From Bacteroidia bacterium (lineage in GTDB: Bacteria; Bacteroidota; Bacteroidia; Bacteroidales; Marinilabiliaceae): DNA of 49,564 bases. The notes under the pieces are model-generated. The model saw only the letters and a program-made list of their open reading frames with translations. It searched no databases and was not told where the DNA came from. Each line of letters starts with the position of its first letter. The stretch's first letter is position 1. The stretch spans positions 1-49,564 of the forward strand of contig JAUNDI010000017.1 in the NCBI GenBank assembly GCA_030526155.1, given 5' to 3'. Positions 2,618 to 26,696 of the stretch are shown here, one piece after another. A program made the translations under genes and the position numbers.

Positions 2618-5600
2618 ATGGCAGAAAGTAGAATACACAGAATAGGACTTGACGTTGGTTCGACGACGGCCAAGATAGTGGTGTTGGCGGAAGATGGCCA
2701 ACTAGAGTATGCTCAGTATGAGAGACACCAAGCGAATCCCCAAGCAGTAGTAGCTCTTTTCCTAGATAAGTTGGCAGAGATATTGAAGGATGATGAATTC
2801 ACATTCTCTGTAACGGGTAGTGTAGGATTAGGAATGGCTGAGAGATGCGGCATACACTTTGTGCAAGAGGTGGTAGCTGCAACAGAATTTACCAAGAAGC
2901 TACATCCAGACGTAACTACGATAATAGATATAGGTGGTGAGGATGCCAAGATAGTATATTTGTCGGGTGGTCAGGTAACTGATTTGCGTATGAATGGCAA
3001 CTGTGCCGGTGGTACTGGAGCCTTCATAGATCAGATGGCATTGTGTCTAGGTGTAGAGGTATCTGAGATGGATAGTTTGGCGAAGAATGCCAAGATAATA
3101 TATCCTATTGCATCGCGATGCGGTGTATTTTCTAAGACAGATATACAGAACTTAATAGCTAGAAATGCTACTAAGGAGGATATTGCTGCTAGTATATTTA
3201 GAGCGGTAGCGGTACAGACAGCCAGTGCATTGAGTCATGGTTGCCAAGTAAGACCTACGGTAATGATGTGCGGCGGTCCGCTTACCTTTCTTCCATCGCT
3301 TAGGAAAGCCATAGCTGACTACTTCCAATTAGACATTGAGAAAGATATATTGAAGTTGGAGCATGCCAACTATGTGCCTGCATGGGGTACGGCGTTGACA
3401 TTTGACGACAGCAAGCGATATACTACAGAGAGTCTCAAGGCGCTGCTCAAAGAGACAGAGACAGAGCGAGACTCGAGAGGTGTAGAGAAGAAGAGATACA
3501 ACTACACTGTACAGATGCCACCTGTATTTAAGGATGCGAAAGATTATACGGCGTGGAGGCAGAAGAAATCAGACAGTGATATACAGTTTGGTACGCTAAA
3601 AGATTTGAATGGCAGACCAGCGTATTTGGGTATTGATTCAGGATCTACTACTACGAAGATAGTTTTGACTGACCCAGATGGTAAGATATTATTCCGTCAT
3701 TATGCTCATAATGGAGGAAATCCTGTAGAGGCAGTAACACTTGGTTTGAATAAGTTGAAAGCCCAAGCCGATGAGGAGGGTGTAGATGTGAAGATAGCTG
3801 CGGGGTGCTCGACCGGTTATGGTGAGGATTTGATAAAGGCAGCCTTCTCTCTCAACTTTGGCATGATAGAGACCATGGCTCACTATGTGGCCGCTCAGAA
3901 TATTTGTCCGAATGTATCATTTATCCTTGATATTGGCGGACAAGACATGAAAGCCATATATGTGGAGAACGGCATATTGACTAGGATGGAGATAAATGAG
4001 GCATGTTCGTCGGGATGTGGTTCATTTATTGAGACCTTTGCGCAGACGCTAGGCTGTGAGATAGGCGAGTTTGTGCAAGAGGCATGTAAGAGTCAGACTC
4101 CATGTGATCTAGGTACACGCTGTACAGTATTTATGAACTCTAAGGTAAAGCAGGTACTTAGAGAGGGTTACTCGTTGAGTGATATTTCAGCCGGCTTAGC
4201 CTATTCGGTAGTTAAGAACTGCCTCTTCAAGGTATTGAAGATAAAGAATTATGATGAGTTAGGCGGTAATATAGTTCTTCAGGGTGGTACTATGCGTAAT
4301 GATGCTATAGTAAAAGCCTTTGAGAATTTGACACAGAGGAGTGTGTATAGAAATAATATCCCTGAGTTGATGGGAGCTTATGGTTGCGCGTTGTATGCTG
4401 CGGAGCAGATAGGCAAGGCAGATACAGATGTGAGACCACTAGAGACTATAATGCAGGCTGCGAATTATGAGTTAGACTCATTGCAGTGCAAGGGTTGTGA
4501 GAATCAGTGTCAGATTACACGCTATAAGTTCCAGACGGGGCAGAAGTTCTACTCGGGCAACAAGTGTGAGAAGATATTTACCAATGGTGCCAATGCCCAG
4601 TATAAGGGTATTAATATGAGTGACTACAAGTACCAATCGCTCTTCAAGACAGAGATGGCTAAGATAGAGCATCCGAAGATGAAGATTGGTATACCTCAGG
4701 TATTGAATATGTTTGAGGAGTTCCCATTCTGGAAGTCGCTCTTTGAGTCGTGCGGCATAGAGGTAGTATTGAGTCCGACATCCACATATCATGACTATGA
4801 GAAGGGAGTACACTCGGTAATGTCTGATAATATCTGCTTCCCTGCGAAGTTGGTTCATAGTCATATCTATGAATTGGCGCAGATGAAGGTAGATAGGATA
4901 TTCTTCCCACGTGTGGTATATGAGAGAGTAGAGGATGAGAACTCATACAACTCATTTAACTGTCCGATTATCATTGGCTATCCAGATGTGGTAGACAGCG
5001 CTATAGAGGTAGATGTACCAGTAGATTCGCCTATTGTTGCCTTTAAGAACAATAAGTTGATGCTTAAGCAGATTGTGGCCTACATGAAGACCCTTGGGGT
5101 AAAGAAGAGTGTGGCACAAGAGGCTGTAATGAAAGCTGTGCGTGATTGGGATGCTTGGGGCGAAGGCTTAAGGGCGAAGAATACAGAGGTGTACAATAAT
5201 GCTGAGAAAGAGGGTAGGATGACCATCTTATTGGCAGGTAGACCATATCATACGGACCCATTGGTACAGCATAATATTGCTGATATGATAGCCAAGATGG
5301 GCGTTGACGTTATTACAGAAGAGATAGCTAGAGGTGGCGCTGTGAAGTTGAAATCAGAGTCGCCAGAGGCCTTCCATATACGTCAGTGGTCGTATGTAAA
5401 CAGAATACTCAATAGTGCGCAGTGGGTAGCAGAGCAGGGACCAAATATACACTATGTAGAGATGACCTCGTTTGGATGTGGACCAGACGCCTTCTTGACA
5501 GACGAGGTGAGATCTATACTAGGTAGACATGGTAAGAGTTTGACACTATTGAAGATAGACGACGTTAGTAATATTGGCTCACTCAAATTGAGGGTACGTT

Positions 5601-6886
5601 CGCTCATTGAGAGTTTGAAATATGATAACGACAAGCATACTGAGGTAGAGGTAAAGCCATTTGTGAAGCCACAGAGCTTTGAGGTAGGCGATAAAGAGAC
5701 CTATACAATATTGGCGCCATTCTTTACAGAGTATATGTCGCCACTCTTGCCATCAGCCTTTAAGGCCATTGGTTATAACCTTGTAGCTTTACCTATGGGC
5801 GATGCTGAGAGTAATGAGTTGGGATTGAAATATTCTAATAATGAGGTTTGCTACCCAGCGACCATTATCGTTGGAGACTTTATCAAAGCCTTGCAGAGTG
5901 GTAAGTATGACTTGAACAAGACAGCTGTTACCATTACCCAGTTGGGACAGTGTAGAGCAACCAACTATCCGGCATTGATAAAGAAAGCCTTCCAAGATGC
6001 TGGCTTGTCGCAAGTACCAGTAATATCTATGGCTGGACTAGACAAGACAGAGAACCCAGGCTTCCATTTGGACTTTAAGGTAGCGGGTCCGATAGTATTG
6101 AACTCATTGTTGTATGGTGACTGGATATCTATCATGTATCATGCTACTGCGGTAAGAGAGATACATAAGGGAGATGCCAAGAGGTTAAGAGAGAAGTATC
6201 TTGATTTGGCCAAGCCATTGATAGAGGCTCAGCACTCTAAGCAGTTGATAAAGCTTTTGGAGCAAGCGGCTGAAGAGTTTAATACTATAGAGGTAGATAA
6301 TAAGACCTATCCGAAAGCCGGTATTGCTGGTGAGATATTCTTGAAGTTTAACCCATTCTCGCACAAACATGTGTCGGATTGGCTTATGGAGCACGGCGTA
6401 GAGGTTTGTCCGCCTACCTTCCATAACTTCTTCCTTAAGTTCTTGGTGAATGTAGAGTTTAACAGGAAGAATAATATCACCAATCCGAAGTTGCCATCTT
6501 GGAGTATGGATTTGATATATAAACTTATTTATAAGAGAGTTCATAAGTTTGAGAAGGCGGCAAGTAAGTTTAGGTACTTTGAGCCAGAGCCAGATATTAA
6601 GACCATAGCCAAGTGGGCAGAAGAGGTGTTGTGTCTATCTGTTCAGAGTGGTGAGGGATGGCTTTTGCCAGCTGAGACGATACAGTATATAAAGCAAGGG
6701 TGCAATAATGTGGTAAGTTTGCAGCCATTTGGATGTATTGCGAACCATATTGCAGCTAGAGGTATAGAGAAGAAGATAAAGACCCTCTATCCACAGTTGA
6801 ATATGCTAGCCCTTGACTTTGATGGTGGAGTATCGGAAGCCAATATAGCCAACAGATTGTTGCTCTTTATTAGCAATATGAAGTAA
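2618..6886 (+). CDS. Giant acyl-CoA dehydratase activase-like fusion protein (paralogue 1)
   Basis: 1422 residues; function not established. Domains in order: a BadF/BadG/BcrA/BcrD ATPase (residues 5-260; GSTTAK, DIGGEDAK), a second such ATPase (336-600; SGSTTTK, DIGGQDMK), a cysteine cluster (C624, C627, C631, C650), a DUF2229-type region (about 690-1000; VMSDNICFPAK, GRPYHTDP, FGCGPD) and a dehydratase-like C-terminal part (NNEVCYPAT, GQCRATNYP, QPFGCIANH). C129/C168 and C463/C502 are each 39 apart, like the [4Fe-4S] ligands Cys127/Cys166 of HgdC, so the two ATPase domains may form an intramolecular pseudo-dimer. In known systems the activator uses ATP to drive an electron into a 2-hydroxyacyl-CoA dehydratase or a double-cubane reductase. 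No separate dehydratase subunits lie nearby. A close paralogue lies at 16513-20790. Confidence 0.85.
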   Translation: MAESRIHRIGLDVGSTTAKIVVLAEDGQLEYAQYERHQANPQAVVALFLDKLAEILKDDEFTFSVTGSVGLGMAERCGIHFVQEVVAATEFTKKLHPDVTTIIDIGGEDAKIVYLSGGQVTDLRMNGNCAGGTGAFIDQMALCLGVEVSEMDSLAKNAKIIYPIASRCGVFSKTDIQNLIARNATKEDIAASIFRAVAVQTASALSHGCQVRPTVMMCGGPLTFLPSLRKAIADYFQLDIEKDILKLEHANYVPAWGTALTFDDSKRYTTESLKALLKETETERDSRGVEKKRYNYTVQMPPVFKDAKDYTAWRQKKSDSDIQFGTLKDLNGRPAYLGIDSGSTTTKIVLTDPDGKILFRHYAHNGGNPVEAVTLGLNKLKAQADEEGVDVKIAAGCSTGYGEDLIKAAFSLNFGMIETMAHYVAAQNICPNVSFILDIGGQDMKAIYVENGILTRMEINEACSSGCGSFIETFAQTLGCEIGEFVQEACKSQTPCDLGTRCTVFMNSKVKQVLREGYSLSDISAGLAYSVVKNCLFKVLKIKNYDELGGNIVLQGGTMRNDAIVKAFENLTQRSVYRNNIPELMGAYGCALYAAEQIGKADTDVRPLETIMQAANYELDSLQCKGCENQCQITRYKFQTGQKFYSGNKCEKIFTNGANAQYKGINMSDYKYQSLFKTEMAKIEHPKMKIGIPQVLNMFEEFPFWKSLFESCGIEVVLSPTSTYHDYEKGVHSVMSDNICFPAKLVHSHIYELAQMKVDRIFFPRVVYERVEDENSYNSFNCPIIIGYPDVVDSAIEVDVPVDSPIVAFKNNKLMLKQIVAYMKTLGVKKSVAQEAVMKAVRDWDAWGEGLRAKNTEVYNNAEKEGRMTILLAGRPYHTDPLVQHNIADMIAKMGVDVITEEIARGGAVKLKSESPEAFHIRQWSYVNRILNSAQWVAEQGPNIHYVEMTSFGCGPDAFLTDEVRSILGRHGKSLTLLKIDDVSNIGSLKLRVRSLIESLKYDNDKHTEVEVKPFVKPQSFEVGDKETYTILAPFFTEYMSPLLPSAFKAIGYNLVALPMGDAESNELGLKYSNNEVCYPATIIVGDFIKALQSGKYDLNKTAVTITQLGQCRATNYPALIKKAFQDAGLSQVPVISMAGLDKTENPGFHLDFKVAGPIVLNSLLYGDWISIMYHATAVREIHKGDAKRLREKYLDLAKPLIEAQHSKQLIKLLEQAAEEFNTIEVDNKTYPKAGIAGEIFLKFNPFSHKHVSDWLMEHGVEVCPPTFHNFFLKFLVNVEFNRKNNITNPKLPSWSMDLIYKLIYKRVHKFEKAASKFRYFEPEPDIKTIAKWAEEVLCLSVQSGEGWLLPAETIQYIKQGCNNVVSLQPFGCIANHIAARGIEKKIKTLYPQLNMLALDFDGGVSEANIANRLLLFISNMK

Positions 6887-12546: not shown

Positions 12547-13083
12547 ATGATGTTACTTAATTTATTTTGGTCGTTCTTCAAGATAGGCTTTTTTACCTTT
12601 GGAGGAGGCCTTGCGATGATACCATTTATACAAGACGAGTTTATCAATAAGAAAAAGTGGCTTACGACCGACGAGATGAATGAGATGATAGCCCTCTCGC
12701 AGTCGTTCCCTGGTGTAATAGCCGTGAATATCTCCATTATAGCAGGGCATAAGTTGGCCGGCATTAAAGGCGGTATAGCTGCAGCTATAGGAACTGTTTT
12801 GCCAGCGCTACTTTCGATAGTACTTATACTTACCTTTCTTGAGGGCTTTCAAGATAATAAGTATGTGCAGTATACCTTTTTAGGCATTAAGGCAGCCTCT
12901 GCGGCATTGATATTAGACACCGTTATACGATTGACGAAGAAGAATATCAAGACCACCTTTGCGTGGGTAATAGCTACGATATCATTATTAGTGGTATTGT
13001 TTGACTTCTCGGCGGCGTGGTCGATTCTTATAGGAGCCATAGCAGGTGTGGTATCACAATGTTTAATCAGTACAAAAAAGTAG
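12547..13083 (+). CDS. Chromate transporter family protein, first half-size subunit
   Basis: 178 residues; a single CHR domain with five or six membrane helices. The diagnostic FKIGFFTFGGGLAMIP segment is at the N-terminus, followed by LSQSFPGVIAVN. Full-length ChrA proteins carry two CHR domains in one chain. Here the two halves are separate genes 8 bases apart, the short-chain CHR pair known in several bacteria. The pair is expected to work together in the inner membrane. Chromate efflux is the family's named activity, but the physiological substrate in gut-type anaerobes is uncertain. Confidence 0.9.
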   Translation: MMLLNLFWSFFKIGFFTFGGGLAMIPFIQDEFINKKKWLTTDEMNEMIALSQSFPGVIAVNISIIAGHKLAGIKGGIAAAIGTVLPALLSIVLILTFLEGFQDNKYVQYTFLGIKAASAALILDTVIRLTKKNIKTTFAWVIATISLLVVLFDFSAAWSILIGAIAGVVSQCLISTKK

Positions 13084-13091
13084 ACGTATAG

Positions 13092-13655
13092 ATGTTAGCA
13101 CTATTCATCATATTTTTCAAGGTAGGATTATTAGGCTTTGGTGGAGGTTATGCCATATTGCCTATGATATATCAAGATGTTCAGACCTTTGGCTTGATGA
13201 CAGCCGATGACTTCTCGAACTTGGTAGCGCTATCACAAGTGACCCCTGGTCCGATAGCCATCAACGCAGCCACCTATGTAGGATTTAGGACATACGGACT
13301 ATTAGGTGCTGTGGTAGCTACATTTGCTGTGTCACTGCCATCCTTCATGCTCATTATGATAGCCATGATGTTTTTGGAGAAGTTCAGAACAAACACGGTA
13401 GTACAAGCTATACTTTTTGGTGTGAAGCCAGCCACGGTGGGACTTATGGCCTCGGCATTTGCCTTTATGCTACAGACAGCCATAATGATAGACCCAGACC
13501 TCTCGTGGTTGTCATTGACAGACGGCAACTTAGATTTGTCGGCGCTATTTATAGCCATTGTAATATTTGCCCTTATAAGATTTACCAAGATAGGCGCTAT
13601 AAAACTTACGCTTCTTGGCGGAATACTAGGTGTAATATTGTCTTTAGTATTCTAG
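13092..13655 (+). CDS. Chromate transporter family protein, second half-size subunit
   Basis: 187 residues; second member of the short-chain CHR pair. The N-terminal FFKVGLLGFGGGYAILPM segment and LSQVTPGPIAINAATYVG repeat the family motifs of its partner, so the two are diverged halves of one transporter type. The ATG follows the TAG stop of the first gene by 8 bases, so they are co-transcribed and probably made in equal amounts. C-terminal half is hydrophobic throughout, giving about six membrane helices. Confidence 0.9.
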   Translation: MLALFIIFFKVGLLGFGGGYAILPMIYQDVQTFGLMTADDFSNLVALSQVTPGPIAINAATYVGFRTYGLLGAVVATFAVSLPSFMLIMIAMMFLEKFRTNTVVQAILFGVKPATVGLMASAFAFMLQTAIMIDPDLSWLSLTDGNLDLSALFIAIVIFALIRFTKIGAIKLTLLGGILGVILSLVF

Positions 13656-16512: not shown

Positions 16513-19500
16513 ATGTCAAAACTATTCAAAATTGGTATTGATGCAGGTAGTACTACCTGTAAGTTTGTTGCTATTGATACTACAACACACGATGTTGTTT
16601 TTTCTAGCTATCGTCGACATTATGCCGATATACGCTCTTGCTTAGAGGTGCAACTAAATGAGATGGAGCAAGCCCTAGGTAAAGATGCACGCTATAGTAT
16701 ATGCCTCACCGGTTCGGCGGGAATAGGATTGAGTGAGCGTAGTGGACTCTCATTTGTACAAGAGGTATTAGCCGTATCGGAGGCTATGAAGGAGACAGGG
16801 CGTACCGACTTCACCCTTATTGACCTAGGAGGCGAGGATGCTAAGATGGTATTCTTCCGTAAGGGGGTGAGCCCTGATATTCGTATGAACGGCTCGTGCG
16901 CAGGTGGTACGGGAGCCTTCATAGACCAGATGGCTACATTATTGTCTATCGAACCCAAAGAGATGTCAGATGCCGCTTTGCAGTATAAGACACTTTACCC
17001 AATAGCTTCGCGTTGTGGAGTATTTGCCAAGACAGATGTTCAGAATCTCATCTCACGTCGTCTGCCATTGTCAGATATATCAGCAAGTATCTTTAATGCT
17101 GTGGCTATGCAGACCATGACTACCCTTGCTAGAGGTGCTAGTCTGATAAAGCCGGTACTATGTACGGGCGGACCGCTTACCTTCCTTACTGCCCTCAGGC
17201 AAGCTTTTGTGCGAGTGCTTAAGATAAAGGAGGAGGACCTTATACTATTCCCTAATGCAGAGATTACTACGGCAAGAGGTGCGGCGCTATATGCCGATGA
17301 GTCGGTAGTAATGACATTAGATGAGATACGCACTGCGTTACAAAAAGAGACTACGGCAGGGTCGGAGCAATTCTTATCTCCTCTATTCACTGGTGAGCAG
17401 GAGTATGACACTTGGAAGCAAAACCTCAAGGTAAAGCACTTAGATATTAAGACTATTGCCGATGGGGTTCATTATGATGCTTTTCTAGGTATAGATTCAG
17501 GTTCTACTACCACTAAATTTATAGTTACTGATATTAATGGTAGTATCATATTCCATAGTTATGCCAATAATGATGGTAACCCACTGCGCAAGGTACAGGA
17601 GGCGCTCACAGTATTCTTCTCAGAGATAGATAGGCATAATGCTACCGTAATATTCCGTGGAGCAAGTGTAACTGGCTATGGAGAGGACCTTATAAAGGCG
17701 GCCCTAAATACCGATTATGGTATAGTGGAGACTATGGCCCACTTTAAGGCTGCTCAATTTGTAGCTAAGGATGTCTCTTTCATACTTGATATTGGTGGAC
17801 AAGATATAAAGTCGATATTCATCAGAAATGGTGCGGTATCTAATATAGAACTTAATGAATCGTGTTCGGCAGGCTGTGGCTCATTCCTACAGTCGTTCGC
17901 TGGTATGATGAATATTCCGCTATCGGAATTTGCCGAGAAGGCCTGTGTGGCTAGTCGTCCGTGCGACCTAGGTACCCGTTGTACAGTATTTATGAACTCC
18001 AAGGTGAAGGAGGCGTTACGTCAGAATACTGACCCTGGGGATATTGCGGCCGGACTAGCTATATCTGTGGTGAAGAACTGCCTATATAAGGTATTGAAGC
18101 TACAGAACCTAAATAAGCTAGGTGATACTATAGTGGTACAAGGTGGTACCTTCAAGAATAAGGCAGTACTACGTGCACTAGAGATACTTAGTGGAAAACA
18201 GGTACACACTACTGATGCGCCAGAACTTATGGGTGCATATGGTGCAGCTCTCTATGCTATAGATCAATACCATATAGAGTGCGAGAAGAACAATGGAGTC
18301 TATAGGTCTACATTCCTTGGTAGGGAGACATTAGAGACGTTAGGGCAGATAGTGACAGATAATGTGCAGTGTAAAGGTTGTACAAATAATTGCCAAGTAA
18401 TACGCTTTAAGTTCCCTAATGGCAACTTGTCGTTCGCAGGTAATAAGTGTGAACGTATATTCCACTCTAAGTCTAAGGCAGAGAAGCCAGGGTTGAATCA
18501 GATAGAGGAGAAGTATAAGTATGTATTCTCGCAAGCTAAGACAGATGCTGATTCTAGAGGGAAGATACGCATTGGTATTCCTCGAGTACTTAATATGTTT
18601 GAGAACTACCCATTTTGGGAGGAGTTGTTCCGTTCGGCAGGGTTGGAGCCAGTATTGTCTGACGAGTCGAATAACAACCTTTACAAAGGCGGTATCTTCT
18701 CTATAATGAGTGATAATATATGCTTCCCAGCGAAGCTGACCAATGGTCATATTATGAATCTAGTCTCGAAGAGCATAGATCGTATATTCTACCCATTGGT
18801 ATTTAAGGAGAGCAAGGAGCATGAGCATGACTCCAATTGCTTTAACTGCCCGGTAGTCTCGGGTTATCCTGATGTTATTCGTTCGGCGGTCGACCCAGAG
18901 GGACGCTATAAGGTGAAGTTTGATACTCCTGTAGTCTCATTTGTCGATGAGAAGGCGCTATATGCATCTTGTACCAACTACTTGGCATCATTGGGTGTTA
19001 AGCCTCGTACTATTAAGCAAGCTATTCGCAAGGCTATAGAGCGTAAGCTAGAGGTGAAGAGGCATCTTATTGAGAGTGAGCGTGCGATATTAGATAAGGC
19101 GCTAGCTGAAGGAAGGATGATATTTGTGATGACTGGTCGCCCTTATCATATCGACCCCCTTATCAATCAGCGTGTGGCGCAGATTGTTACCGATTTGGGT
19201 GCTGATATTATCTCAGACGATGTCTTTAGGGAGGATGCCGAGGCTTGTCTAGAGATGAACTATATATCGCAGTGGACATATCCAAATCGTGTGGCCCATG
19301 CGGCACATGGTGTTGCTAGATTACCACAGAATGTGCAGTTGATACAGATTAACTCATTTGGCTGTGGTCCTGACTCCTTCTTAATGGATGAGTGTGCTAA
19401 TGTGCTAAATGCTGCAGGTAAGAATCATACAGTAATACGTGTTGATGAGATTAGCTCTCCGGGGTCTGTCAGACTTCGTCTGCGTTCGCTCATTGAGAGC

Positions 19501-20790
19501 CTAAAGCAGAGTAATGCCCTTGGTAGAGGTGCTAATGCCTCGGATTATAAGGCGCTTCATACTCGATTTACTGAGGAAGAGAAGAGTAATAGGACTATAG
19601 TAATACCTTGGCTATCGGATAGTCTCTCGCCAGTATTCCCTGTATTCTTCAAGAGATTAGGATTTAGGGTGCAGAATCTACCTAAGTCGGACGAGGAGTC
19701 AATACAGCTAGGATTGAAATATGGTCATAATGAGGTATGCTATCCAGCTACATTGGTATTAGGAGATATGATGAAGTTTATTCTTTCGCATAAGGATGAA
19801 CTTGATAAATATGTGATAGGTATGACACAGACAGGCGGTCAGTGTCGTGCCACCAATTACCTTACGCTTATAAAGAATGCGCTTGTTACTGCGGGATATG
19901 CTGATGTGCCACTATTGTCTATCAATACAGGTACGGCATATGGCAACGACCAGCCGGCCTTTAAGGCAGATGTTAAGTTGGCTCTCTCGTTGGTAGTAAA
20001 ACTAGTTACCTATACCGAGGCATTGGCAGCTATGCAGCGCTCGATGATTGTTAGGCAAAAAGAGTCGGGTGTTGCCGAGGCTATATTCCAAAAATATATC
20101 GATATCGCCATAAAGCTAACCGACGAGAAGCAGGAGGATAGACTTGTAGATGCCCTCTCGGATGCTGTGGATGAGTTTAATGCCATTCCAGTGAAGGATA
20201 TTGAGCCTATGGTGGTGGGTTTGATAGGTGAGATATATATTAAATATAACCAGCAGGGTCAGCTTCAGCTTACCAAATGGATGCAAGACCAAGGTATAGA
20301 GGTGGTAGTGCCTTCGCTTATGGCCTTCTTGGTACAGGGATTTGTCAATAATAAGGTCAACCATAAGGGCCATATAGAGCGCACCACATTTGTGGAGAGG
20401 TTGGTAACGAAGTTTATCAGTCAGTATGTCTCTCGTAACGAGAGTAGGATGGAGAAGGTGAAGCGTAAATTCAGATACTACCGCCCTGAGGGGTCGATAT
20501 TCGAGATGGCCGATGATGCCTCTAAGGTATTGAACCTTGCCAATCAGTTTGGTGAGGGGTGGCTTATCGCTGGAGAGGTTATGGAACTTGCACGCCAAGG
20601 AGTTAAGAAGGTGGTATGTTTGCAGCCATTCGGTTGTATTGCCAACCATATTGTGGCTAGAGGCATAGAGAATAGGCTTAAGAAGGTTTGTCCGGATGTC
20701 GGACTCCTCTTCCTTGATATCGACTCTAGTGTAGCTAGGGTGAATCTAGAGAATAGACTCCATTTCCTTATCGACCAGGCAGATAATTGA
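16513..20790 (+). CDS. Giant acyl-CoA dehydratase activase-like fusion protein (paralogue 2)
   Basis: 1425 residues, with the same architecture as the protein at 2618-6886 along its whole length: ATPase domain 1 (GSTTCK, DLGGEDAK), ATPase domain 2 (SGSTTTK, DIGGQDIK), a cysteine cluster (C620, C623, C627, C646), a DUF2229-type region (IMSDNICFPAK, GRPYHIDP, FGCGPDS) and a C-terminal dehydratase-like region (GHNEVCYPAT, GQCRATNY, QPFGCIANH). The predicted [4Fe-4S] cysteines are C129/C168 and C451/C490, again 39 apart. It lies 48 bases after lptD and 8 bases before an alkyltransferase gene. Codon use differs visibly from paralogue 1 (more CGT/CTA), so this is not a recent duplication. Substrate unknown. 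Confidence 0.85.
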   Translation: MSKLFKIGIDAGSTTCKFVAIDTTTHDVVFSSYRRHYADIRSCLEVQLNEMEQALGKDARYSICLTGSAGIGLSERSGLSFVQEVLAVSEAMKETGRTDFTLIDLGGEDAKMVFFRKGVSPDIRMNGSCAGGTGAFIDQMATLLSIEPKEMSDAALQYKTLYPIASRCGVFAKTDVQNLISRRLPLSDISASIFNAVAMQTMTTLARGASLIKPVLCTGGPLTFLTALRQAFVRVLKIKEEDLILFPNAEITTARGAALYADESVVMTLDEIRTALQKETTAGSEQFLSPLFTGEQEYDTWKQNLKVKHLDIKTIADGVHYDAFLGIDSGSTTTKFIVTDINGSIIFHSYANNDGNPLRKVQEALTVFFSEIDRHNATVIFRGASVTGYGEDLIKAALNTDYGIVETMAHFKAAQFVAKDVSFILDIGGQDIKSIFIRNGAVSNIELNESCSAGCGSFLQSFAGMMNIPLSEFAEKACVASRPCDLGTRCTVFMNSKVKEALRQNTDPGDIAAGLAISVVKNCLYKVLKLQNLNKLGDTIVVQGGTFKNKAVLRALEILSGKQVHTTDAPELMGAYGAALYAIDQYHIECEKNNGVYRSTFLGRETLETLGQIVTDNVQCKGCTNNCQVIRFKFPNGNLSFAGNKCERIFHSKSKAEKPGLNQIEEKYKYVFSQAKTDADSRGKIRIGIPRVLNMFENYPFWEELFRSAGLEPVLSDESNNNLYKGGIFSIMSDNICFPAKLTNGHIMNLVSKSIDRIFYPLVFKESKEHEHDSNCFNCPVVSGYPDVIRSAVDPEGRYKVKFDTPVVSFVDEKALYASCTNYLASLGVKPRTIKQAIRKAIERKLEVKRHLIESERAILDKALAEGRMIFVMTGRPYHIDPLINQRVAQIVTDLGADIISDDVFREDAEACLEMNYISQWTYPNRVAHAAHGVARLPQNVQLIQINSFGCGPDSFLMDECANVLNAAGKNHTVIRVDEISSPGSVRLRLRSLIESLKQSNALGRGANASDYKALHTRFTEEEKSNRTIVIPWLSDSLSPVFPVFFKRLGFRVQNLPKSDEESIQLGLKYGHNEVCYPATLVLGDMMKFILSHKDELDKYVIGMTQTGGQCRATNYLTLIKNALVTAGYADVPLLSINTGTAYGNDQPAFKADVKLALSLVVKLVTYTEALAAMQRSMIVRQKESGVAEAIFQKYIDIAIKLTDEKQEDRLVDALSDAVDEFNAIPVKDIEPMVVGLIGEIYIKYNQQGQLQLTKWMQDQGIEVVVPSLMAFLVQGFVNNKVNHKGHIERTTFVERLVTKFISQYVSRNESRMEKVKRKFRYYRPEGSIFEMADDASKVLNLANQFGEGWLIAGEVMELARQGVKKVVCLQPFGCIANHIVARGIENRLKKVCPDVGLLFLDIDSSVARVNLENRLHFLIDQADN

Positions 20791-23579: not shown

Positions 23580-23652
23580 GCGGAAATAGCTCAGTTGGTA
23601 GAGCACAACCTTGCCAAGGTTGGGGTCGCGAGTTCGAGTCTCGTTTTCCGCT
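23580..23652 (+). tRNA. tRNA-Gly (GCC), copy 1
   Basis: Acceptor stem GCGGAAA/TTTCCGC, anticodon stem CAACC/GGTTG around loop TTGCCAA (anticodon GCC), T-arm with GTTCGAGTC. The 3' CCA is not encoded. First gene of a four-tRNA transcript. Confidence 0.95.
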
Positions 23653-23669
23653 CTTTTTTTATTTTCCTC

Positions 23670-23753
23670 GCGCAGGTGGTGAAATTGGTATACACGCTAC
23701 TTTGAGGGGGTAGTGGTCGCAAGATCGTGTGAGTTCGAGTCTCATTCTGCGCA
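23670..23753 (+). tRNA. tRNA-Leu (GAG), copy 1
   Basis: Class II tRNA with acceptor stem GCGCAGG/TCTGCGC, a long variable arm with a GGTC/GATC stem, and an anticodon stem CTACT/GGTAG around loop TTGAGGG (anticodon GAG, G at position 37, a TrmD target). The CCA is not encoded. Confidence 0.92.
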
Positions 23754-23759
23754 CAATAT

Positions 23760-23832
23760 GCGGAAATAGCTCAGTTGGTAGAGCACAACCTTGCCAAGGT
23801 TGGGGTCGCGAGTTCGAGTCTCGTTTTCCGCT
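23760..23832 (+). tRNA. tRNA-Gly (GCC), copy 2
   Basis: Identical to the copy at 23580-23652; anticodon GCC. Part of the 180-base tandem duplication. Confidence 0.95.
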
Positions 23833-23849
23833 CTTTTTTTATTTTCCTC

Positions 23850-23933
23850 GCGCAGGTGGTGAAATTGGTATACACGCTACTTTGAGGGGGTAGTGGTCGC
23901 AAGATCGTGTGAGTTCGAGTCTCATTCTGCGCA
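23850..23933 (+). tRNA. tRNA-Leu (GAG), copy 2
   Basis: Identical to the copy at 23670-23753; anticodon GAG with a long variable arm. Last tRNA before the terminator at 23946. Confidence 0.92.
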
Positions 23934-25725: not shown

Positions 25726-26058
25726 ATGACACGTTCGATTGGGGCATCCATATTATCAAATGAGCTTAAAAAAGCGAATAGTATGTGGTCGTACGATGAA
25801 AAGTCTATAGACCAAATACCTGATGATGTCTTGATTGAAAAAACTCTCATACATTTGGATATGCCTGAGATAAAGATATTATTTGATATTTTCCCTAAAC
25901 GTAAGATAAAAAGAGTTTGGAGGGAACAGTTGATACCTCGTGGTGATTATCTTAGGACGTTAAATAGATTTTTTGCTTGGTATTTGTTTGATATCAAGAG
26001 ACCTGATGCATATCTCAAGAGTATGGAAACCCGACGTCTCAATTCCATTTTGAAATGA
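25726..26058 (+). CDS. Putative antitoxin partner (DUF6922-like)
   Basis: 110 residues. It resembles the short proteins (DUF6922 type, from memory) that precede AbiEii-like nucleotidyltransferases in Bacteroidota; the recognisable parts are IDQIPDDVLIEKTLIHLD and KRKIKRVWREQLIP. It is basic and helical, consistent with DNA binding, but no classical helix-turn-helix is evident. Its last four bases (ATGA) overlap the start of the next gene, so translation is coupled. By analogy with AbiEi it may neutralise and repress the pair; this is inference. Confidence 0.65.
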   Translation: MTRSIGASILSNELKKANSMWSYDEKSIDQIPDDVLIEKTLIHLDMPEIKILFDIFPKRKIKRVWREQLIPRGDYLRTLNRFFAWYLFDIKRPDAYLKSMETRRLNSILK

Positions 26059-26696
26059 TAGGATTAGCACCACATACGGAGAGAATATTTGAACTTGTCA
26101 CAAAACTAGAGTGTATAAAACCTTACGTTCTCGTTGGTGGTACTGCTTTATCCTTGCAAATAGGAACTAGGATGAGAGAAGATTTGGATTTTATTTCATG
26201 GATTGAGAAAAAAGGAGACAAATGCGAGGTGTCTTGGAGACAAATAGAAAAGGAATTATCCTCTATAGGTCATATACAATCAATGGACATACTCGATATT
26301 GACCATGTTGAGTATGTTGTAGAAGGTGTCAAACTATCATTTTATGCATGCAATAAAAAGAGTCCTATTCAAGAGAAATTTCTCTTAAAAAATAACCTTG
26401 TTTTGGCTGATAAGCTTTCGATTGGAGCCATGAAAATGGAGGTGATGTTGCGCCGATCTAATTTTAGAGATTATTACGATATATATTCTCTTTTGCAAGA
26501 AGGAGTTCCTCTTCAAGATATGATAAGCTTAGCATTGTCATATTCTGGTCATTTGCTTAAGAGTAAAAACCTACTTGCCATGCTTACCAATGGGGCTAGA
26601 TTTAATAGAGATTCTCACTTTGAACTATTACAACCAAAATATAAGATTTCGCCTATTGAAATTGAAGAATACATTAAACAATTATTGAAAGAGTAA
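26055..26696 (+). CDS. AbiEii/AbiGii-type nucleotidyltransferase toxin
   Basis: 213 residues. The nucleotidyltransferase signature is clear: GG at 28-29 followed by D43 and D45 in REDLDF, and a C-terminal KMEVMLRRSNFRDYYDIY segment typical of the AbiEii/DUF1814 family. Characterised members add nucleotides to tRNA acceptor stems and act in type IV toxin-antitoxin or phage-abortive systems. Start codon overlaps the stop of the partner gene. The module has its own promoter and sits between housekeeping genes gltX and xseA, which suggests insertion as a unit. Target unknown. Confidence 0.85.
   Translation: MIGLAPHTERIFELVTKLECIKPYVLVGGTALSLQIGTRMREDLDFISWIEKKGDKCEVSWRQIEKELSSIGHIQSMDILDIDHVEYVVEGVKLSFYACNKKSPIQEKFLLKNNLVLADKLSIGAMKMEVMLRRSNFRDYYDIYSLLQEGVPLQDMISLALSYSGHLLKSKNLLAMLTNGARFNRDSHFELLQPKYKISPIEIEEYIKQLLKE

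Follow-up and report, generated by a model that had tools for sequence, protein, structure and literature searches.

Protein A, a polypeptide of 1422 residues encoded at positions 2618..6886 (+ strand) of a 49,564-nucleotide stretch of Bacteroidales DNA (contig JAUNDI010000017.1, here the window), probably belongs to the benzoyl-CoA reductase (BCR)/2-hydroxyacyl-CoA dehydratase (HAD) superfamily and works as an ATP-driven, low-potential iron-sulfur reductase within a single chain, as does its paralogue, protein B, from the same window; both assignments derive from sequence comparison. From its open reading frame (ORF) and its Pfam and TIGRFAM matches, protein A is predicted to consist of two diverged activase ATPase domains (D1 and D2), a four-Cys linker site and an acceptor of two tandem modules (half 1 and half 2) that resemble HGD-D (PF06050), the D component of 2-hydroxyacyl-CoA dehydratases, with three Cys residues in each module. 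The single chain thereby appears to hold the parts that related systems spread over several subunits, plus the CX2CX3CX18C motif of the linker. The architecture is already catalogued in several phyla through Pfam domains and product names, and proteins A and B are its Bacteroidales members. No functional study of the two-ATPase plus DUF2229 acceptor architecture was found in the open-access literature, subscription literature being outside the scope of the search, and proteins A and B are apparently an uncharacterised variant of this known architecture.

The reading frame of protein A starts with ATG and is intact, with no internal stops. The BadF/BadG/BcrA/BcrD family (PF01869) matches residues 1-600 in two stretches (2.6e-69, 234 bits against a cut-off of 31.5), with the cut-off passed by D1 and by D2 separately, and TIGR00241 likewise matches in two stretches (236.5 bits, cut-off 125.4). 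D1 spans approximately residues 6-268 (2633..3421, +) and carries the motifs DVGSTT and DIGGED, and D2 spans approximately residues 335-600 (3620..4417, +) and carries DSGSTT and DIGGQD. The Cys pair of D1, Cys129 in NGNCAGGTGAF (codon 3002..3004, +) and Cys168 in ASRCGVF (codon 3119..3121, +), aligns with the equivalent motif cysteines of the double-cubane cluster protein (DCCP) reductase (7yyl_E) and MbdP (9gai_C). The pair of D2, Cys463 in NEACSSGCGSF (codon 4004..4006, +) and Cys502 in GTRCTVF (codon 4121..4123, +), aligns with Cys127 and Cys166 of HgdC (1hux), positions counted from the alignment. The first-pass annotation had described two ATPase domains with these Cys pairs, each 39 residues apart, and the ORF, the Pfam/TIGRFAM matches and the alignments confirm it. 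It had also likened both pairs to Cys127/Cys166 of HgdC, an equivalence that holds for D2 by direct alignment; the HgdC alignment covers D2, the D1 cysteines are placed through 7yyl_E and 9gai_C instead, and the spacing alone does not establish it.

The 39-residue spacing is weak evidence on its own, as 605 of 5000 composition shuffles give at least two such pairs. The protein is Cys-rich, and a third pair with this spacing (C496/C535) is present. The claim for the ATPase cysteines is instead carried by homology and conservation. All four (129, 168, 463 and 502) are conserved in each of the 36 rows of a full-length alignment, which is composed of proteins A and B and 34 full-length frames from 42 fetched loci; eight loci (six partial matches and two split genes) were left out, and many of the 34 are near-copies. 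A 44-row alignment adds seven relatives from other phyla (Listeria, Collinsella, Haliovirga, Fusobacterium, Paraclostridium, Acetoanaerobium and Subdoligranulum) and one split gene (L034), and the motif Cys pairs keep the 39/39 spacing in 44/44 rows. Cys467 and Cys535 of D2 are likewise invariant in the 36 full-length rows, position 467 being a Thr in Paraclostridium, Monoglobus and HgdC.

Following the two ATPase domains, DUF2229 (PF09989) matches residues 689-902 with 248 bits (cut-off 29.4). Half 1 of the acceptor (residues 686-1021; 4673..5680, +) includes DUF2229 and an HGD-D-like C-terminal part with Cys740, Cys782 and Cys954, and half 2 (residues 1026-1422; 5693..6883, +), with Cys1078, Cys1112 and Cys1373, is homologous to half 1 and HGD-D. 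In hhalign comparisons of profiles of 18 rows per half, relatives from other phyla included, half 1 matches half 2 with a probability of 98.5% (E 3e-15, score 117), half 1 matches HGD-D with 92.4% (score 58) and half 2 matches HGD-D with 78.6% (score 49), where E-values and probabilities refer to single comparisons against one template each. The maximal scores of 30 column shuffles are 22.8, 20.2 and 20.2, respectively, and controls with reversed alignments and ATPase profiles remain below 1%. Only three Cys columns per acceptor half are filled in at least half of the rows, and the triads are found in 18/18 rows of half 1, 17/18 rows of half 2 (the exception being Paraclostridium) and 20/20 rows of HGD-D; in an earlier alignment of 16 HGD-D rows, the three Cys occur in 14, 16 and 16 rows. 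All three Cys of half 2 align with the HGD-D cysteines, as do the first and third of half 1.

Free-standing relatives add to this evidence. The half 1 protein of Monoglobus matches both DUF2229 and HGD-D in Pfam (the latter at 2.7e-9, over the cut-off), while the half 2 protein matches the N-terminal part of DUF2229 and HGD-D (1.6e-6, 28.4 bits, at the cut-off); the Fusobacterium half 2 has no HGD-D match in Pfam. By phmmer, Monoglobus half 1 weakly matches DCCP 7yyl_C (7.4e-4), HadB 3o3m_B (1.9e-3) and DCCP 6eno (3.1e-3), and its third Cys falls on that of the matched DCCP/HadB chains. The domain matches, the Monoglobus pieces and the three hhalign comparisons bear out the initial proposal that the ATPases are fused to a dehydratase-like partner. 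The accompanying idea of a DUF2229-like region and Cys-rich C-terminus as the acceptor stands in its dehydratase-like character and is refined here to tandem HGD-D-like modules, of three Cys each, and a separate four-Cys site.

Sixteen Cys residues are invariant in 36/36 rows (129, 168, 463, 467, 502, 535, 624, 627, 631, 650, 740, 782, 954, 1078, 1112 and 1373). These would form four sites, 129/168/463/502, 624/627/631/650, 740/782/954 and 1078/1112/1373, with 467 and 535 left over, and each site is predicted to be occupied by a cluster. The linker site (C624, C627, C631 and C650; 4487..4567, +) is a candidate for an extra cluster between the ATPases and the acceptor. Its motif is present in 42/44 rows, the exceptions being L034, in which it is carried by the second gene of the split, and Paraclostridium, in which it is absent. 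Protein B (1425 aa; 16513..20790, +), which is absent from the first-pass annotation and was identified as an ORF and by comparison with protein A, has the same architecture, is 41% identical to protein A over nearly the whole length and retains all sixteen of the cysteines, with its ATPase pairs at 129/168 and 451/490.

Genes that are split at module borders support a four-module reading of the single chain. In L034 and L035, which look closely related, the stop codon of a double-ATPase gene overlaps the ATG of the next gene (ATGA), and this second gene begins just before the four-Cys site. L089 (genome G238) is split between ATPases and acceptor with the same ATGA overlap, and L091 is cut at this border and a second time within the acceptor. 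The Fusobacterium relative is cut between the acceptor halves (975 + 404 aa), and the longest frame of Subdoligranulum (979 aa) fits the same cut. In Monoglobus (L062), three neighbouring genes encode proteins of 329, 407 and 330 aa, respectively a DUF2229 protein, a product named '2-hydroxyacyl-CoA dehydratase' and one activase, in whose tail the four-Cys site lies. The ATGA overlaps most plausibly mark genuine gene borders, while some cuts may reflect frameshifts or errors of assembly. Among the group of six short DUF2229 frames that includes L089 and L091, L092 and L094 end at contig edges and L090 and L093 are ambiguous.

ATP-driven reduction beyond the reach of ferredoxin is rare, being found in nitrogenase-type systems and in the archerase systems HAD, BCR and DCCP. 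In a review, the activase is described to hold a [4Fe-4S] cluster by two Cys per monomer and to hand an electron to the dehydratase upon an ATP-driven conformational change. In protein A, the pairing of D1 with D2 would resemble that within the HgdC dimer or between MbdP and MbdQ, with C129, C168, C463 and C502 jointly holding one [4Fe-4S] cluster. A donor such as ferredoxin, suggested because three POR_N matches (pyruvate:ferredoxin oxidoreductase type) are present in the host genome (G000), would reduce the ATPase cluster, perhaps via the C624/627/631/650 site. ATP hydrolysis in D1 and D2 would then lower the potential and drive electrons one at a time into the acceptor halves, whose clusters would be of the [4Fe-4S] type; one half would store and relay electrons, while the other would hold an open-site cluster that reduces the substrate. 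According to PMC11971306, the cluster of HadB and BzdO is bound by three Cys and by water or hydroxide, the cluster of the partner subunit stores and relays electrons, and an [8Fe-9S] cluster uses six Cys. With three Cys per half, protein A is more likely to hold single [4Fe-4S] or [4Fe-5S] centres than [8Fe-9S].

The C-terminal half of the chain is most likely the target of its own ATPases, because no other activase or HGD-D match is found in G000: all four PF01869 places (E<=0.001) of this 91% complete genome fall in proteins A and B, with none elsewhere, and a search with PF06050 stays empty up to E<=10. The self-containment proposed at the outset is upheld by these searches. A more far-reaching version is offered tentatively and with considerable doubt, namely that all four functional subunits and a relay cluster work in one polypeptide on a substrate other than a CoA ester, as a widespread, unrecognised, minimal 'nitrogenase-like' electron pump that is present in two copies in a genus of Bacteroidales. 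The named relatives of this two-copy genus are largely from herbivore-gut sources.

Protein A shares features with several characterised systems. The activases HgdC and HadI (1hux, 4eht; PF01869) are like its ATPase domains in family, in the Cys pair 39 residues apart and in nucleotide motifs. By contrast, HgdC/HadI are described in a review as homodimers with one domain per chain that are separate from the dehydratase, whereas protein A has two diverged domains and the acceptor in one chain. Class I BCR (MbdP/MbdQ in 9gai; BzdNO with BzdPQ) similarly includes two unlike ATPases and two unlike catalytic units, according to PMC11971306, but these are separate subunits rather than a single chain. 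The BCR equivalogs score below cut-off on protein A (TIGR02259, 124 of 578 bits; TIGR02261, 94 of 313; TIGR03192, 86 of 380). The D component of 2-hydroxyacyl-CoA dehydratases (HadBC, HgdAB; PF06050) has two homologous modules with three conserved Cys each and is separate from its activase, whereas in protein A the modules are fused in tandem and joined to the activase. The DCCP and its reductase (7yyl; YjiM/YjiL) also pair an activase with an HGD-D-type acceptor, but are encoded by two genes and use six cluster Cys per double cubane compared to three Cys per half in protein A; the physiological relevance of DCCP is called unclear in PMC11971306. The DUF2229 proteins of Listeria, Fusobacterium (split), Collinsella and Haliovirga, which have the same architecture at 34-39% identity, are protein A's own family and are named 'acyl-CoA dehydratase activase' or '2-hydroxyacyl-CoA dehydratase' in databases. 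The ATPase part of methanogenesis marker 15 (TIGR03286; 404 model positions) matches D1 and D2, although neither protein A nor Monoglobus half 1 reaches the cut-off of this model. Positions 62-134 of TIGR03286 weakly match the C-terminal part of Monoglobus half 1 (P0003, L062:4001-4990; 8.4e-4), which suggests that marker 15 may be another activase fused to an HGD-D-like piece.

Several observations weigh against the proposed reductase. The second Cys of half 1 is misaligned with the second Cys of HGD-D in hhalign, PF06050 matches the acceptor in 0/27 Bacteroidales members, and an acceptor profile (A2, Bacteroidales) finds no solved chain in the Protein Data Bank (PDB) below E=0.1. Shallow profiles (Neff ~2.3) give hhalign probabilities of only 6.9%, 7.5% and 0.4%, and Monoglobus half 2 has nothing convincing among solved chains by phmmer, its best HGD-type match being 7yyl_C at E=0.52. 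The link of the acceptor to HGD-D is therefore one drawn through relatives and the deeper profile comparison. Neither the second triad nor the linker site is kept in the Paraclostridium relative, so that these are not essential in every member. This plasmid-encoded protein of 1282 aa (L063 4001-7849) retains both ATPase Cys pairs and triad 1 and could serve as a natural experiment on which clusters are indispensable. In addition, gene absences in a 91% complete genome are not final, and no gene that would name a substrate was seen around the homologues in a partial inspection by eye.

An alternative arrangement of the ATPases, in which two chains pair D1-D1' and D2-D2' to form two bridging clusters per homodimer, is quite unlikely. 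In its favour, each domain alone has a complete activase Cys pair together with the nucleotide motifs, like HgdC, which is a homodimer; the Monoglobus locus has one ATPase gene, the product of which presumably self-pairs; and a profile search places the best stretch of HadI (4eht), also a homodimer, on D1 and the best stretch of HgdC on D2, with no neat heterodimer sorting. However, D1 and D2 form separate tree lineages (subject to a long-branch caveat) and show fixed differences, GGED versus GGQD in 42/44 rows (with Q in D1 of Haliovirga and Paraclostridium) and Thr133 versus Cys467; moreover, a solved pair of unlike ATPase subunits exists in which MbdP matches D1 and MbdQ matches D2. It is very unlikely that the acceptor carries DCCP-type [8Fe-9S] double cubanes and forms a fused double-cubane cluster reductase. 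While Monoglobus half 1 weakly matches DCCP (7yyl_C, 6eno) and NF040772 (2.7e-5, 23.4 bits versus a cut-off of 350), six Cys per [8Fe-9S] cluster according to PMC11971306 contrast with three conserved per half, as in HadB/BzdO, and protein A has no match to NF040772 at E<=0.001.

Readings that differ in function rather than in assembly must also be weighed. A reductive activator, which would re-reduce another enzyme or cofactor (e.g., a corrinoid or radical enzyme) and would not turn over a small substrate, has some appeal, since the lack of fixed neighbours seen and the very different hosts fit a general service role and DUF2229 is found in 14/15 genomes of the genus; such a role is nonetheless unlikely, as a two-module acceptor with triads is the make-up of an enzyme core and not of a donor protein. 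The 2-hydroxyacyl-CoA dehydratase function that some databases assign, and with which the product names of relatives and the HGD-D homology of the acceptor agree, is highly improbable. CoA_transf_3 (PF02515) was not found in G000, an indirect argument, nor was any HGD-D match, PF06050 matches none of the 27 Bacteroidales acceptor rows, the neighbours of protein A are pta and ackA, and neighbours vary among homologues. No sign that the surroundings point to a 2-hydroxyacyl-CoA was found.

The tandem ATPase of the proposed reductase appears to have a history of its own. In a tree of 37 ATPase domains, D1 forms one group (support 91/81, or 100/99 without Paraclostridium), as does D2 without Paraclostridium (100/100); taken whole, D2 requires two changes and is recovered as a single group in only 15% of bootstrap trees. 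Long branches lead to both Paraclostridium domains, to MbdP and to the DCCP reductase, and groupings of such branches can be spurious. The lone activase of Monoglobus belongs to neither of the two well-supported groups, while MbdP and MbdQ, placed together, fall with other single activases apart from D1/D2, with weak support (92/69). The tandem ATPase looks old and separate from the BCR pair, which suggests that its duplication was independent of MbdP/MbdQ.

DUF2229 is found in 59/198 Bacteroidales genomes and in 5/198 genomes of a phylum draw (own genome included in each), and, at the level of the domain match, also in the control genomes of Thermotoga maritima, Lactococcus lactis, Thermus composti and Deinobacterium chartae. 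The full architecture is seen in several phyla (Listeria, Fusobacteria, Clostridia and Coriobacteriia). The long chain is the rule in Bacteroidales: outside G000, 52/63 DUF2229 places lie in frames of at least 1380 aa, a count based on DUF2229 places and frame lengths that leaves aside one 77-aa fragment and the echo matches produced by the second half. Ten of the 14 DUF2229-bearing genomes of the genus have two places that cover nearly all of the model. The genes pta and ackA, which adjoin the protein A gene, are found beside homologues only in L002 (both) and in L001 and L019 (ackA) among 41 loci, many with short flanks. Shared neighbours are seen only between the close pairs L004/L028 and L014/L022 (by eye, flanks of 12/42 loci). 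Certain matches are in records of a plasmid collection (NZ_CP030101.1, NZ_CP154629.1 and NZ_CP141089.1) that are 2.6-4.9 Mb and look like whole chromosomes; thus, they allow no statement on mobility.

The Listeria member of the architecture (L064 5007-9434) is presumably lmo0788, judging by gene order. PMC2679221 reports that this gene is under PrfA control, has no known role and shows strong induction in vivo. Other reported genes are related by name, not by architecture: an 'activator-related' gene of S. mutans that is up 2.2-fold without Mn (PMC6952196), an 'activase' of S. gallolyticus induced with THP-1 cells (PMC5495212), an 'activase' of L. oligofermentans behind a Rex-like motif (PMC4972977), and activase and dehydratase genes of Slackia tied to selenium genes by STRING (PMC5322559). 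Relatives in several anaerobes bear dehydratase names that the analyses here do not support, and finding the substrate could correct many annotations. With pump and target in one chain, their ratio and geometry would be fixed and expression might be easier than for four subunits; such a protein would also show whether the cycle requires the ATPase and acceptor clusters to come apart.

The window corresponds to contig C51 of G000, a genome of 2.6 Mb. The closest named relatives are from Bacteroidales metagenome-assembled genomes (MAGs) of horse faeces (L001, L002, L019 and L033), with 90-97% identity over the best segment, and a MAG assigned to Marinilabiliaceae (L003) reaches 87%, which makes a Bacteroidales host most likely. 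The protein B gene resides between an LptD-like gene and an MGMT-like gene, the latter of which it overlaps by 4 bases. Elsewhere in the window, four tRNA genes lie in a row (23580-23933) with alternating scores (70.5/45.2/70.5/45.2 bits), as if a tRNA pair had been duplicated in tandem; an RNA-family scan of the window found nothing beyond these four. A small ORF followed by an AbiEii-like nucleotidyltransferase gene (25726-26696) may form a type IV toxin-antitoxin pair, and two short chromate transporter genes side by side (12547-13655) possibly encode a two-gene transporter.

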